From a virus: a DNA stretch of 42,539 nucleotides. The stretch spans positions 1 through 42,539 of IMG/VR virus record IMGVR_UViG_3300006076_000611; one strand, 5' to 3'. The notes below the pieces were generated by a model. It saw only the letters and a program-made list of their open reading frames with translations, was not told the origin of the DNA and made no database searches. This document shows, one piece after another, positions 2,169-42,539 of this stretch (positions are counted from its first letter, which is position 1; each line of letters opens with the position of its first letter). The translations under genes and the position numbers were made by a program.

Positions 2169-2690
2169 CTATTCGGAGGGCGACCAGTATTGATCGTCCT
2201 GATAATCCGCCGGGATCGGGTCCATTGCGATCAGGGCAAAGTAATATTGCCAGATCGCCTGCCGACTGGCGGCACCGGTGTTGATGATATCCATCCATTC
2301 GGTCGGCGATACCGACACCGGCCCGGTATTGGTGACGATGTTGATGGCCGTGCTATCCGACAGCGCAAGCCGCGCCTGCGCGATCGGCATGACTTCCATC
2401 ATCCACGCCGCCATGTCCTTTTCATCGGTGCCAATGGTGTGGACGCCGCGATCATCGCCGAAATCATAGTCAAAGGATGCAGCCGCAAGGCGGCGGTCGC
2501 GTTCGGCTTCGACATCATATACCGAGATAGTCTGACCGCCTGCTACAATCTCCCAGCCATAGCTACGCCAAAAACAGCCTTGGGTTGATCGGTCATATTC
2601 TGGCGCGGCAACGCCCGCGCGCAACATCCATGATGCAGGGCTGTCAGTAGGGATGTGTTCGCCAGTGTATGGGCTATAAAGATCATCCAT
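2169..2690 (-). CDS. DUF4376-like protein, tail-fibre associated
   Basis: A 173-residue protein directly downstream of the receptor-binding protein gene. The central segment AERDRRLAAASFDYDF followed by HTIGTDEKDMAAW has the R-x-x-x-x-x-x-F-D-Y ... TDE pattern of DUF4376. That domain is often found in phage proteins encoded after tail-fibre genes and resembles tail-fibre assembly or cap proteins. The second half (PVSVSPTEWMDIINTG, AIWQYYFALI) also fits. The likely role, as inference, is folding or attachment of the protein encoded just upstream. Confidence 0.7.
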   Translation of the reverse strand: MDDLYSPYTGEHIPTDSPASWMLRAGVAAPEYDRSTQGCFWRSYGWEIVAGGQTISVYDVEAERDRRLAAASFDYDFGDDRGVHTIGTDEKDMAAWMMEVMPIAQARLALSDSTAINIVTNTGPVSVSPTEWMDIINTGAASRQAIWQYYFALIAMDPIPADYQDDQYWSPSE

Positions 2691-2691
2691 T

Positions 2692-4020
2692 TTATCTCAC
2701 CTTCTGCCCAAAATTCAGGTGGTCACCGGCGGCGCGAATTGAAATAGTCCAGATCGAGTAGGACAGCGCAGTGCCGAAGTTCGCGCAGCGCGACCCGGAA
2801 CTCGAGCCATCGCCACGGTTGCCGCCAAGAAGGATTTCACCAGCACCTGCATAGATGCTACCACGCCCCACGCTGGTAAAACTTGAACCGCCGACGCTGT
2901 GGATCGGACCGCCAATGGCGTATTGATGCCCGGTCGCTTGTTCGATACCGATGCGACTTGTGTATCCAGCTTGCCGCGCTGTCGCGGTTATGGTTGACGC
3001 TGGACCACCAAGGCTCTGACTTTCTGTCACACCAAAAGCAAAAGACATGAATTCCTCATATCTCGGTAGACGCAGGCCGAATGACGATACAAGCTCGTTT
3101 GCTTCGAATGTTGAGAGGCGCGAATATTTTGTTACCCCGTCACCGCCCCATGCCGCCGGGATATATGGCAAAACTGTCCCGCTACCGACATTGGTATTGT
3201 AAGCCGACGGGCCATTCGTATCCGGGTCGTCTGACATAAAATAGATAGCTGTCCAAATCTTCATGACCGGATCGAATGCCATTCCACGCTGCTCACCAGC
3301 GCATTTAAACACGTCATCCCAAATCGAAAACTCGTTAATCCCTTTGATCTTGTCTACAGCGGCTTGCGTCCAGCCGAACGAGCCACCAGCAGACGTAACG
3401 CCTGACGTGCTAAAGCCTCCGCCTGCAACGGTTTCGGCCGGGCCGACTAGCCCGTAATGATACCCGCCGACTTTGACCGCACCAGACTGCGGCGCGGTCA
3501 GATCACCCGTCGTTGCAGGACTGCCGTAGGAATCAGCTACAGCTTGGAGCGATCCGTCGGTTTTCAACCAGATTGAATAATCAGTGCCGGACGAATGCGG
3601 CGGCATTGTAACGGCGGTATCGGACGCCCATTCATGAACAGCACCACCCGCCGCAATGCGCGTTCCTGCCGTAATAGAAATCGTTTGAGCCGCGGTCTTT
3701 TTGAATGCCGGAGCCGAAATATCCGCCTTTTGGAAGACGCTGAACCGCGCCGATTGATCAATGCCGCTTAGTTGCGAACCATCCCCGTCGATCCGCAGGA
3801 ATGATTTACCGACTTCACCATGGTCAACCCACCCGGTGTTTGCCGCATTGCGCTGATAAAGGTGGCCGTCACTGGTATTGACATAAGGCATGTAGGAATA
3901 AGTGACGGATGGCGCGGTTGCACCAGAATTCATCGTTGCGACTGCAAGCAGCGCGTCATTGAAATCACCCCGGACAACCGCACCTGATCCATTTGCAGCG
4001 ACGTAATCATGCTGTGCCAT
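2692..4020 (-). CDS. Receptor-binding tail protein with Mtd-like C-type-lectin domain
   Basis: A 442-residue tail protein. The N-terminal ~220 residues look like a fibre/attachment region (VNTSDGHLYQRNAANTGWVD; Gly- and Thr-rich). The C-terminal ~200 residues match, from memory, the lectin fold of Bordetella phage Mtd and other DGR target proteins: MAFDPVMKIWTAIYFMS, GLRLPRYEEFMSFAFGVTES, GYTSRIGIEQATG, and the final block LGGNRGDGSSSGSR ... IRAAGDHL. In such proteins that last block is the variable ligand-binding surface. No reverse transcriptase or template repeat was found in the window. Host-receptor recognition at the tail tip is strongly supported; active diversification is not. Confidence 0.85.
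   Translation of the reverse strand: MAQHDYVAANGSGAVVRGDFNDALLAVATMNSGATAPSVTYSYMPYVNTSDGHLYQRNAANTGWVDHGEVGKSFLRIDGDGSQLSGIDQSARFSVFQKADISAPAFKKTAAQTISITAGTRIAAGGAVHEWASDTAVTMPPHSSGTDYSIWLKTDGSLQAVADSYGSPATTGDLTAPQSGAVKVGGYHYGLVGPAETVAGGGFSTSGVTSAGGSFGWTQAAVDKIKGINEFSIWDDVFKCAGEQRGMAFDPVMKIWTAIYFMSDDPDTNGPSAYNTNVGSGTVLPYIPAAWGGDGVTKYSRLSTFEANELVSSFGLRLPRYEEFMSFAFGVTESQSLGGPASTITATARQAGYTSRIGIEQATGHQYAIGGPIHSVGGSSFTSVGRGSIYAGAGEILLGGNRGDGSSSGSRCANFGTALSYSIWTISIRAAGDHLNFGQKVR
2716..2835 (-). other. Candidate DGR variable-region-like segment (residues ~396-435)
   Basis: This segment encodes the terminal lectin block of the receptor-binding protein. Several positions that are Asn (AAY) in typical DGR templates are occupied here by Gly (GGC), Asp (GAT), Tyr (TAC), Ile (ATC) and Thr (ACT). 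Most of these can be derived from AAC/AAT by changing adenines. Framework residues GSR and DHL are kept, and the 3' end is G+C-rich (GGTGACCACCTG). It could be a fossil or trans-acting variable region, or an ordinary lectin domain of the same fold. Confidence 0.4.
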
Positions 4021-4391: not shown

Positions 4392-7001
4392 TTAGGCCAG
4401 TTCTTCTGCGGTGATCCGCATGTCACTGACCCGGATGTTGTAGGATTGGTCCGACACTGTCAGGACCGCTTTGGGGTCAACCGCCCGACAGTAAACCTCT
4501 GCACTGTCAAGACGTTGCCATTCCGACCAGGTCGGGGAAACGTTCGGGTCATCATCGGTGGTGCGCACCCAGATAGTGCAATCGCCTTCGCCCGATGCAT
4601 CGCCATCCCAGTCCGGCCAGTCATCAACCGTCCCGACCCTGTCATCGATCAGATCGACAACATTGACGACCTCGACCGTGACAGACGCGGTCAGGCGCAT
4701 GCGACGTTTCGAACCGAAATCAAGGCCAGACCCCCAGTCATATTCGCCGCTGGTCAGAATGCCGCCATAGGCATCAACCGACGACACCGCATCAAAATCA
4801 ATGATGTCATCAACCAACCCGACGCCCTGCAGGGTCAGGTCACCGTCATCATTGACAATCGTGCCATCGTGTGTGCCGTCATAGGCCGTGCTTTCGACAA
4901 CCGTGTCATAGGTCGAATATTCAAGGACCGTCGCACCATCGGTGGTGACAATCGCCGGATCCGACACCGTGCCGACCGCATCAATGAATTGCACAAGATA
5001 CGATCCGGGCTTAAGCGGCAGGACCGCCATGGTATCGCCGCCTGGCACGTCATCCCCGATCGAGGTTGACGTTGCCAAAGTCGCGCCCGTAAGCGCCTGA
5101 CAATGACGGAACCGGACAACACCGCCCTGCGTAACGTCAAGATCCGGCGACCGGTTCCAGCGCAGGAACACAAAGCCGCCCGATACCGAAATCGTCACAC
5201 CGGTTGGCGTGGCGGGTGTATCGCCAAGACCCTGAATTTCACGGCGCACCGTGACGTATTCCGACCCCGGCCCGACGACACTGACCGCCTTGACGCGCCA
5301 GTCGTAAATGCCGGTGGCAACGTCAAACAGTTCAAGGAACGGGCGACCCTTCACACGCGGATATACCGTCCATTCCAGTTCACCGAGCAAGCGGCTTTCG
5401 AACTGGTAATCGGTGACAAAGCCGTCATCGGCCTCGCCCGATTGCAGAACCACCTTGACCTTGACCCCGCCACCATCGCGGGTCGAATATTTGACCTCGG
5501 TGACATCAAGGCCGTCTGGCGGCTCGACATCGCTTGGCGATGGCAGCGTGCTTGCCGCCGATACCGCCACGATCTTTTCATCCTCTGTGGTCCAGTCATA
5601 TCCCTCTGCGCTGGTTTCACGCAGGGTCATGTCGATACCAAGCCGGATCACTTCGCCATCATTGCGCGGCGCGAAGCGCCAGGTGACAACCTCGAACGGT
5701 TTGGCATCAAAGCCATAAGCCGCACGGGTGAAGCCAACCACGTCGCCAACCCGCACTGCCATGCCCTTGAGGTTGCATTGCAGATCAAGCTCGATCTGCT
5801 GCCGGTTCCGGAAAAGCGCCTGCTTCTGCAACCGCTGCCCGGCGGAGGCCGACGGGGTGTACAGATATTCCCGATCATCGGCGATTTCCTTACCCTGATC
5901 CTCGGCAATAAAGACCTCGGATTTCAGGACCGGCAGATCCGTCGGTTGAAAAAGGCTGCTTTTCGCGGCATAGACACCGCGCAAGGTATTGTACAGGTCA
6001 CGCTTTGACTGGCGCGTCCGCATGCGGATCGGCCCGTCTAGCCAGCTTTCATCAACCGTATATTCCGGCGTGCGATAGTATCCGGCATGGACGGCCCATT
6101 CCCCGCCCGTGCGCGTGGCAATACCCGCGCCGGGATTAAGCAACTCTCGCAGGTTGTCACCAACAGGATTGCCGGTATCGACCACACCCGCCACGACGTA
6201 GCGTTTTTCGGTGCCGCCGGCGGCAAGGTCCACATCTTCATCACAGACATTGGCCGACGCGATCAGATCATCCTCATTGATCGCGGCAAAGCTCGCACCG
6301 ATACCGTCTTCAATTGCGACATAATCGGCAACAACCAACGCCCAGTTGTCGGTGTAGCCCGTTGTTTCGGTGCGCGGGTCATAGATATCTTTCTTGCCCT
6401 TGACCAGCGCCTTGATCTGCGGAATGCCGGACGGGTAAATGTCCTGATCCCAAGTCAGTTCGCAATAAAGCTTGGCACAGTCCTTTTGCTTGTGATCAAC
6501 CGTCCATTCGCTGTTGCGCGCCCGCATGGCCGCCAGCAGATCCGCGTCACCATCATCGGTGCCGTCACCCTTCCAGAAGGTCGCATACCCGGCATATTTT
6601 CCGATCGCATTCCCGGTGCCCGACCCCTCGAATACCTTGGTATCGCCAAACCAGATATCACCAATTTCCTCAACCGGGTGCCCGGTGATGGTGATCAGCC
6701 ATTGCAGTTTGCGCTTGCCATCGGTGACATTCATAAACGTCACCGGGCCAGATGCCGCCGTTTGACCATAGATGATCGGGCGCGTTGCGATCGACTGGCG
6801 CACCATCTGCGTGCGATCAGAAAGCCGCGATCCGATACTTAGATCAGGCGTCTTGGGTTTGGTGCTGAAAAATGACGCACCGGCAAAGCTGATAGCCCCG
6901 CCAACAACAGCCCCGGCGATGGATCCCAGAAGGCCGCCCACAACGGAACTTGTCGCGCCGCCGGCCACTGCGGCAACAATCGCAACAGCAGCTTGTGGCA
7001 T
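4392..7001 (-). CDS. Tail tip protein J-like (host specificity/central fibre)
   Basis: An 869-residue protein, the largest in the window, probably the central tip protein analogous to lambda gpJ. It starts with a Gly/Ala-rich hydrophobic segment (GGLLGSIAGAVVGGAISFAG). This is followed by RPIIYGQTAASGPVTFM and LQWLITITGHPVEEIGDIWF, which are typical of phage tail-tip proteins (Phage-tail_3-like). A middle region (~350-470) carries DLQCNLKGMAVRVGDVVGF. Beta-sandwich, fibronectin-III-like segments follow (DWRVKAVSVVGPGSEYVTV; VSGGFVFLRWNRSPDLDV). It lies directly after the NlpC/P60-like gene, the K-I-J order of lambda. Confidence 0.85.
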   Translation of the reverse strand: MPQAAVAIVAAVAGGATSSVVGGLLGSIAGAVVGGAISFAGASFFSTKPKTPDLSIGSRLSDRTQMVRQSIATRPIIYGQTAASGPVTFMNVTDGKRKLQWLITITGHPVEEIGDIWFGDTKVFEGSGTGNAIGKYAGYATFWKGDGTDDGDADLLAAMRARNSEWTVDHKQKDCAKLYCELTWDQDIYPSGIPQIKALVKGKKDIYDPRTETTGYTDNWALVVADYVAIEDGIGASFAAINEDDLIASANVCDEDVDLAAGGTEKRYVVAGVVDTGNPVGDNLRELLNPGAGIATRTGGEWAVHAGYYRTPEYTVDESWLDGPIRMRTRQSKRDLYNTLRGVYAAKSSLFQPTDLPVLKSEVFIAEDQGKEIADDREYLYTPSASAGQRLQKQALFRNRQQIELDLQCNLKGMAVRVGDVVGFTRAAYGFDAKPFEVVTWRFAPRNDGEVIRLGIDMTLRETSAEGYDWTTEDEKIVAVSAASTLPSPSDVEPPDGLDVTEVKYSTRDGGGVKVKVVLQSGEADDGFVTDYQFESRLLGELEWTVYPRVKGRPFLELFDVATGIYDWRVKAVSVVGPGSEYVTVRREIQGLGDTPATPTGVTISVSGGFVFLRWNRSPDLDVTQGGVVRFRHCQALTGATLATSTSIGDDVPGGDTMAVLPLKPGSYLVQFIDAVGTVSDPAIVTTDGATVLEYSTYDTVVESTAYDGTHDGTIVNDDGDLTLQGVGLVDDIIDFDAVSSVDAYGGILTSGEYDWGSGLDFGSKRRMRLTASVTVEVVNVVDLIDDRVGTVDDWPDWDGDASGEGDCTIWVRTTDDDPNVSPTWSEWQRLDSAEVYCRAVDPKAVLTVSDQSYNIRVSDMRITAEELA

Positions 7002-41450: not shown

Positions 41451-42539
41451 ATGGCGAAGCTTGATCTGCCGGGACTGTGCGTTGAACGCAATCGATCGGG
41501 AACGCCTGCATGGCGCGTCCGGGTCGAGGGCGATGCACGCCGCAAGATCACGCTGCCGGTCAATCCCGACCACCCGGAATTCATGGAACTGTATCGCGCA
41601 GCGCGCGCGGGCATAAAGGCGCTGCCACAAGGCAAGCCGGAAGACCGGGTCATGCGGTCATCCCTTGATTGGTTGCGGGTCAAGTATATTGATCACCTGC
41701 AGGCAATGGTCGAGGCGGGGGAGGCATCCGACAAGACGCACAAGCAGCGCAAGGGGCTACTCCAGCGGATGTGCGATATGGTGACAGAGGAAGGCGACCG
41801 GTTCGGTGATTTCGAAATGGAGATGCCAACCCATTTCATCACACGCGCGCGCAACCAGATGGCAAAGACTCCGGGCGCTGCGGCGAACATGGTCAAGGCG
41901 ATCCGGGCGATGTACAAATGGTCCTTCGAAACCGGCATCACCCAGACCAACCCGGCGATCAACATTTCCCCACCCCGACCAAAGGGCAAGGGCGCGATCC
42001 CCTGGACGGTCGAAGACCTTTACCAGTTCCGAGACAAGCACCCGCCGGGCACGATGGCCTATCTTGCGGTGACGCTGTTCATGTTTACATCGTGTCGCAT
42101 CAGCGATGCCTATATGCTCGGACGCAAGAACGAGTTTGAATACAAGGGCCGCACATGGATCGGCTGGCAACCGGTGAAAAAGGGATCAACCTTTGTCGAT
42201 ATCCCGATCCTGCCGCCCTTGATGAAGGCGCTCCGATCGCAAACCGTCGTCGGTGAAACCTATCTGTTAAACGAATACGGCCAACCGTTCGCAAGCCCCG
42301 AAGGACTGCGCAACCGCATGCGAAAATGGTGCGACGAAGCCGGATTACCCCACCTGTCCAGCCATGGCATCCGCAAAGGATCCGGCACGATGATGATTGA
42401 AATGGGCTGTTCGGTGCATGATGTCATGTCTGTCCAGGGACACAGCGATTCAAAAACATCGGACGTCTACACCAAGTCATTCAACCGCCGCCAGCACGCC
42501 GAAAACGCCATGGACAAACTTGCCGGTCTGGACTGGTGA
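41451..42539 (+). CDS. int: Tyrosine-recombinase integrase
   Basis: A 362-residue phage integrase that inserts and excises the phage genome. The core-binding domain (~70-165) is helical. The catalytic domain has Arg in TSCRISDAY (R216), Lys in VKKGSTFVDIP (K243/244), H-x-x-R in SSHGIRKGS (H305, R308), His in QGHSDSKTS (H331) and the nucleophile in DVYTKSF (Y340). All catalytic positions are intact. An AAGGAAA ribosome site precedes ATG 41451, abutting the upstream stop. The gene ends at the last base of the window, so attP/attL must lie just outside. Confidence 0.95.
   Translation: MAKLDLPGLCVERNRSGTPAWRVRVEGDARRKITLPVNPDHPEFMELYRAARAGIKALPQGKPEDRVMRSSLDWLRVKYIDHLQAMVEAGEASDKTHKQRKGLLQRMCDMVTEEGDRFGDFEMEMPTHFITRARNQMAKTPGAAANMVKAIRAMYKWSFETGITQTNPAINISPPRPKGKGAIPWTVEDLYQFRDKHPPGTMAYLAVTLFMFTSCRISDAYMLGRKNEFEYKGRTWIGWQPVKKGSTFVDIPILPPLMKALRSQTVVGETYLLNEYGQPFASPEGLRNRMRKWCDEAGLPHLSSHGIRKGSGTMMIEMGCSVHDVMSVQGHSDSKTSDVYTKSFNRRQHAENAMDKLAGLDW

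Follow-up and report, generated by a model that had tools for sequence, protein, structure and literature searches.

In the DGR of Bordetella phage BPP-1, experiments have established that Avd, the template repeat (TR) and the reverse transcriptase (RT) function in trans; a hairpin is required for efficient homing, and disruption of its stem cuts tropism switching over 1000-fold (PMC3240598). Targets that stand apart from an RT have also been described. The partial DGRs of the DUSEL4 Nanoarchaeota consist of a target with an adenine-mutated variable repeat (VR) and no adjacent RT, and their authors weigh a fossil against remote diversification (PMC4372165). According to a global DGR survey, remote targets would be missed (PMC8144416). 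Among phages, Marinomonas phage P12026 and the Synechococcus phages S-CBS1 and S-CBS3 have an Mtd-type gene but no annotated RT in its vicinity, and the P12026 record contains no RVT_1 match. Mtd genes without an RT and fossil VRs are known already; what appears to be new here is a located template, recurrent loss of the cassette (a novelty judged against part of the literature) and a homogenised tract limited to the VR.

We analysed a stretch of DNA of 42,539 nucleotides from a marine-type bacterial virus (the window), in which an open reading frame on the minus strand (2692-4020) is intact and encodes a protein of 442 aa. Mtd variants of Bordetella phage with solved structures match this protein with E-values between 4e-41 and 8e-38, the best being 1yu4 (Mtd-U1, 4e-41), and Pfam PF21916 mtd_2nd (1.4e-10) and PHROG tail protein 11262 (5e-65) match it as well. 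Residues 94-435 are 34% identical to the BPP-1 mtd product, and the similarity runs across both the second and the C-terminal domain. Judged by these similarities, the product is a true homologue of Mtd and a predicted receptor-binding protein of that family. A C-type-lectin fold is predicted for its C-terminal domain from sequence homology to solved Mtd; the AlphaFold2 model has a mean pLDDT of 51. The gene adjoins tail-tip genes, with a tail fibre or tail-tip J-like protein encoded upstream (4392-7001, minus strand), and a tyrosine integrase at 41451-42539 (plus strand) indicates a temperate phage.

The protein is composed of two parts. The N-terminal adaptor (aa 1-90; 3751-4020, minus strand) is common to Thalassospira-type phages with other, non-Mtd C-terminal parts, some of them inside Thalassospira genomes. 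The Mtd module (aa 91-442; 2695-3750, minus strand) is 83-84% identical to those of three related phages, L001, L002 and L003, and in L002 and L003 it is joined to N-terminal parts unlike that of the window. L001, the closest sister phage, sits in the Thalassospira MAG contig L007, the two being identical over 13,388 bp.

The earlier note had proposed that a template with adenine-specific differences be sought beside an RT in related phages, and L003 (IMGVR_UViG_3300026848_000006) provides it. There, mtd is followed by Avd (Pfam bAvd, 3e-25), the TR and the RT (RVT_1, 2e-16), a complete cassette beside an Mtd module 84% identical to the window's; the N-terminal part and the downstream genes differ from those of the window. 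The L003 TR matches the window at 2722-2826 (minus strand), which places the VR there; it had been guessed at 2716-2835. The 81-nt core of the VR (2743-2823, minus strand) has nine mismatches to the L003 TR, and all nine fall on TR adenines, which occupy 20 of the 81 positions (P=6e-7). Nine VR codons depart from the template codons (AGC, GAC, AAC and AAT) at adenines only, above chance. The GC-rich end of the repeat holds three more differences (GG to AA, T to C); this end and the bases after it (2714-2736, minus strand) are IMH-like, an assignment made by analogy with BPP-1 (PMC3240598). As positive controls, DGR-bearing relatives including BPP-1 were passed through the same scan and gave 7-18 mismatches at template A, with no non-A mismatch in most loci, a single one in a few, and four in L013. 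This pattern, together with the third codon positions described below, shows the window VR to be an adenine-mutagenised product of a DGR whose template was nearly identical to that of L003.

Compared with BPP-1, the window has a homologous protein, a VR in the same C-terminal position, adenine-specific substitutions and an IMH-like GC-rich VR end, but it lacks Avd, TR, RT and the hairpin that follows the VR, and its N-terminal adaptor is different. It resembles the partial, or fossil, DGRs in carrying an adenine-mutated VR in a target gene with no adjacent RT. In contrast to the window, the Nanoarchaeota genome has other DGRs and its targets have no sequence homology to known targets (PMC4372165), whereas the template for the window VR lies in another phage. 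The mtd genes of P12026, S-CBS1 and S-CBS3 are only 32-33% identical to the window's by local tblastn, no template was identified for their VR region, and S-CBS1 and S-CBS3, unlike the window, retain a hairpin after the stop codon.

That the window holds a DGR-type, Mtd-like protein and no RT, as first described from the sequence, was confirmed. The whole record (42.5 kb) gave no RVT_1 match and no match to an Avd or RT of the L003 type. When both strands were scanned with the L003 template, changes at its adenines being tolerated, the VR alone had 0 non-A mismatches; the next-best place in the window template scans had 24 or more (30 with the L003 template). A template inside the window was therefore rejected. 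An RT elsewhere in the window was likewise rejected, as was one in the Thalassospira MAG of L001/L007, where RVT_1 gave no match. In 29 genomes of the host genus we found no close DGR RT, the RT matches there being weak (23-33% identity, in ORFs of 460-566 aa), and no RT above 41% identity was found in 317 genomes of the order. A search of the genus for a template repeat likewise gave none. The VR pattern search also returned two viral contigs, L050 and L053, in which mtd found no match; they were taken as chance hits. Two genomes of the same order, G216 (loci L056 and L058) and G215 (L057), have one or more Mtd-like genes and no L003-type RT match in a search run without a positive control, and these loci were left out of the loss count.

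In DGR-bearing relatives, mtd, Avd, TR and RT are followed by a tail-assembly-like gene with a conserved stretch of about 50 residues at its start (MNDxYSPHTGEHI...), whose ATG mostly overlaps the RT stop. In the window, L001 and L002 this gene comes directly after mtd (TAA-A-ATG; in the window at 2688-2694, minus strand). The window copy (2169-2690, minus strand) has a weak DUF4376 match below the cut-off. Two related phages without Mtd, L004 and L042, share only the later part of the gene, so its first part belongs to the Mtd module. Together, aa 91-442 and the opening ~50 aa of the gene that follows appear to be passed from phage to phage as one unit, without the cassette. At the mtd stop, a hairpin whose loop has four bases (CTGCGC-GGTA-GCGCAG in L003) was visible in 17 of 19 DGR-bearing loci vs 0 of 6 direct-junction loci (P=2e-4). 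The count was made partly by eye, since in several DGR-bearing loci the hairpin contains two internal G-A mismatches and scores weakly in folding. No hairpin or cruciform was found just downstream of the window VR. In two DGR-bearing loci, L011 and L088, neither an Avd match nor a hairpin after mtd was seen; the mtd stop and the template of L011 are only ~100 nt apart.

At several points in the tree, RT-less modules fall within groups of DGR-bearing ones, the cassette being cleanly absent, more than once, between the same two genes. For the window clade, support was too low for trees to speak to a single or a repeated deletion, L003 having no copy of the next gene. The downstream junction looks old in this clade, because 42-54% of third positions differ among the window, L001 and L002 in the first 48 codons of that gene.

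A second clade of RT-less phages, comprising L089 and L090-L092, has a common junction, GGAGATAACATG, and no RVT_1 match in any of the whole records. Measured against the template of L015, a DGR-bearing phage, the VRs of L089 and L090-L092 are changed at 12 and 18 of 23 adenines, with one other mismatch each. In this clade both the mtd stop and the RT stop are followed by GGAG, a short repeat that could have caused the same deletion more than once. L086 is also RT-less. In L090, a 217-bp imperfect direct repeat (831-1047 and 6707-6902) flanks mtd. L021, a record with no RVT_1 match, has an mtd that the tree places as sister to that of BPP-1; past its stop, apparently just the left arm of a hairpin like that of BPP-1 remains and unrelated sequence follows, possibly a breakpoint inside the hairpin. 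In P12026 (L061), a stretch after the RT-less mtd (6831-6953) weakly resembles Avd (39% over 41 aa, E=0.001) and may be a decaying cassette.

Third codon positions set the VR apart from the rest of the module. Outside the VR, 43% of them differ between the window and L003 and 45% between the window and L002, vs 1/27 in the VR core in either comparison, and no upstream stretch of 27 codons is as low. Divergence resumes right after the VR (5/16 third positions for L003, 6/16 for L002; over a longer stretch, 26/64 for L002). At first and second positions of the core, the window and L003 differ in 11 of 20 adenine columns and in none of the 34 others. The L001 core differs at 5-6 of 27 third positions, which would fit an older VR or one written from a different template. 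The same island is present between L089 and L090, where third positions differ by 56% over the 60 codons that precede the VR, at 0/28 inside it and at 13/59 beyond it, with four differences in an 11-codon tail counted by eye. It is also seen between DGR-bearing phages with diverged mtd bodies (L015-L017, 0/27 vs 37%; L014-L036, 2/27 vs 58%). Since these controls share template and VR backbones, the island reveals the template type of the last writer and not, by itself, the time of writing. As proof that the VR was rewritten after the loss it is weakened accordingly, and we retain such rewriting only as a rival explanation.

Overall, we consider it more likely than not that the window VR was written by a DGR whose cassette was later deleted, and that it is now frozen. 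The gene would be the target gene of a BPP-1-type DGR from which the remaining parts were cut away, the deletion having presumably fused the end of mtd directly to the beginning of the tail-assembly-like gene and taken out hairpin, Avd, TR and RT. The receptor-binding tip would since have been inherited as a fixed variant, and the protein would act as a conventional receptor-binding protein of the tail whose single specificity is frozen. The earlier note had left three options, diversification in trans, loss, or a domain that is simply inherited; loss is the best supported, because cassette and hairpin are absent where relatives carry them. Freezing is further favoured by the lack of an RT or template in the genus genomes and by invariance at VR adenines in RT-less groups. 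Against it stands the old-looking junction beside a VR core nearly identical to those of L002 and L003, a combination which implies either that the deletion was repeated with the same product or that the VR was rewritten afterwards.

The second of these possibilities leads to the strongest alternative, namely an old deletion followed by occasional, continuing rewriting of the VR by the RT and template of a co-resident, L003-like DGR phage. We regard this as unlikely, yet deserving of serious consideration. Near-identity limited to the VR between diverged flanks, in both window-L002 and L089-L090, and junctions common to each clade agree with it, since after a single old deletion islands beside diverged flanks would mean that writing came later; moreover, the BPP-1 components act in trans (PMC3240598). 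On the other hand, the hairpin for efficient homing is absent, and neither RT nor template was found in the genus genomes searched. Near-identical RT-less phages also argue against it: the adenine-position variation sought among close isolates was not seen in either of two small groups, L001/L007 and L090/L091/L092, whereas in near-identical DGR-bearing groups 6-13 of 21-23 VR adenine columns vary, with 0-10 differences per ~640 bp of body. This contrast rests on few groups, and one DGR-bearing pair, L003/L028, likewise has no VR difference. If rewriting in trans were true, one DGR would serve a pool of different phages sharing a template type.

More doubtful still is homologous recombination, by which the VR would have been copied from the mtd of a DGR-bearing phage and its adenine pattern would be second-hand. 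Module exchange between phages is evident from the different N-terminal parts, and the RTs of L016 and L017 are almost identical (1% third-position difference) beside mtd bodies 36% different, which shows mtd bodies being swapped independently of the cassette. However, in the window, L002, L089 and L090 alike, the near-identical tract stays inside the borders of TR and VR, and this fits the prediction of retrohoming, not that of general recombination. Finally, although receptor-binding tips generally evolve fast, ordinary diversifying selection on the receptor-binding site with no DGR history is highly improbable and was rejected for the VR core, where every change is on a template adenine and the third positions of changed codons are conserved; a simply inherited domain is thereby dismissed for the VR itself.

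A DGR target, as these findings show, can move between phages and endure in the absence of its diversifier. With the VR of a phage that has no RT now linked to a template in a second, named phage, the choice between a fossil and diversification in trans becomes directly testable, and surveys that require an RT beside the target overlook such genes (PMC8144416). Matches to the C-terminal part of Mtd also turned up in tail fibre gene 17 of two records named Escherichia phage T7 (LR745707.1 and LR745708.1; 34% identity), which is unusual for T7, and these are perhaps engineered or mislabelled records.
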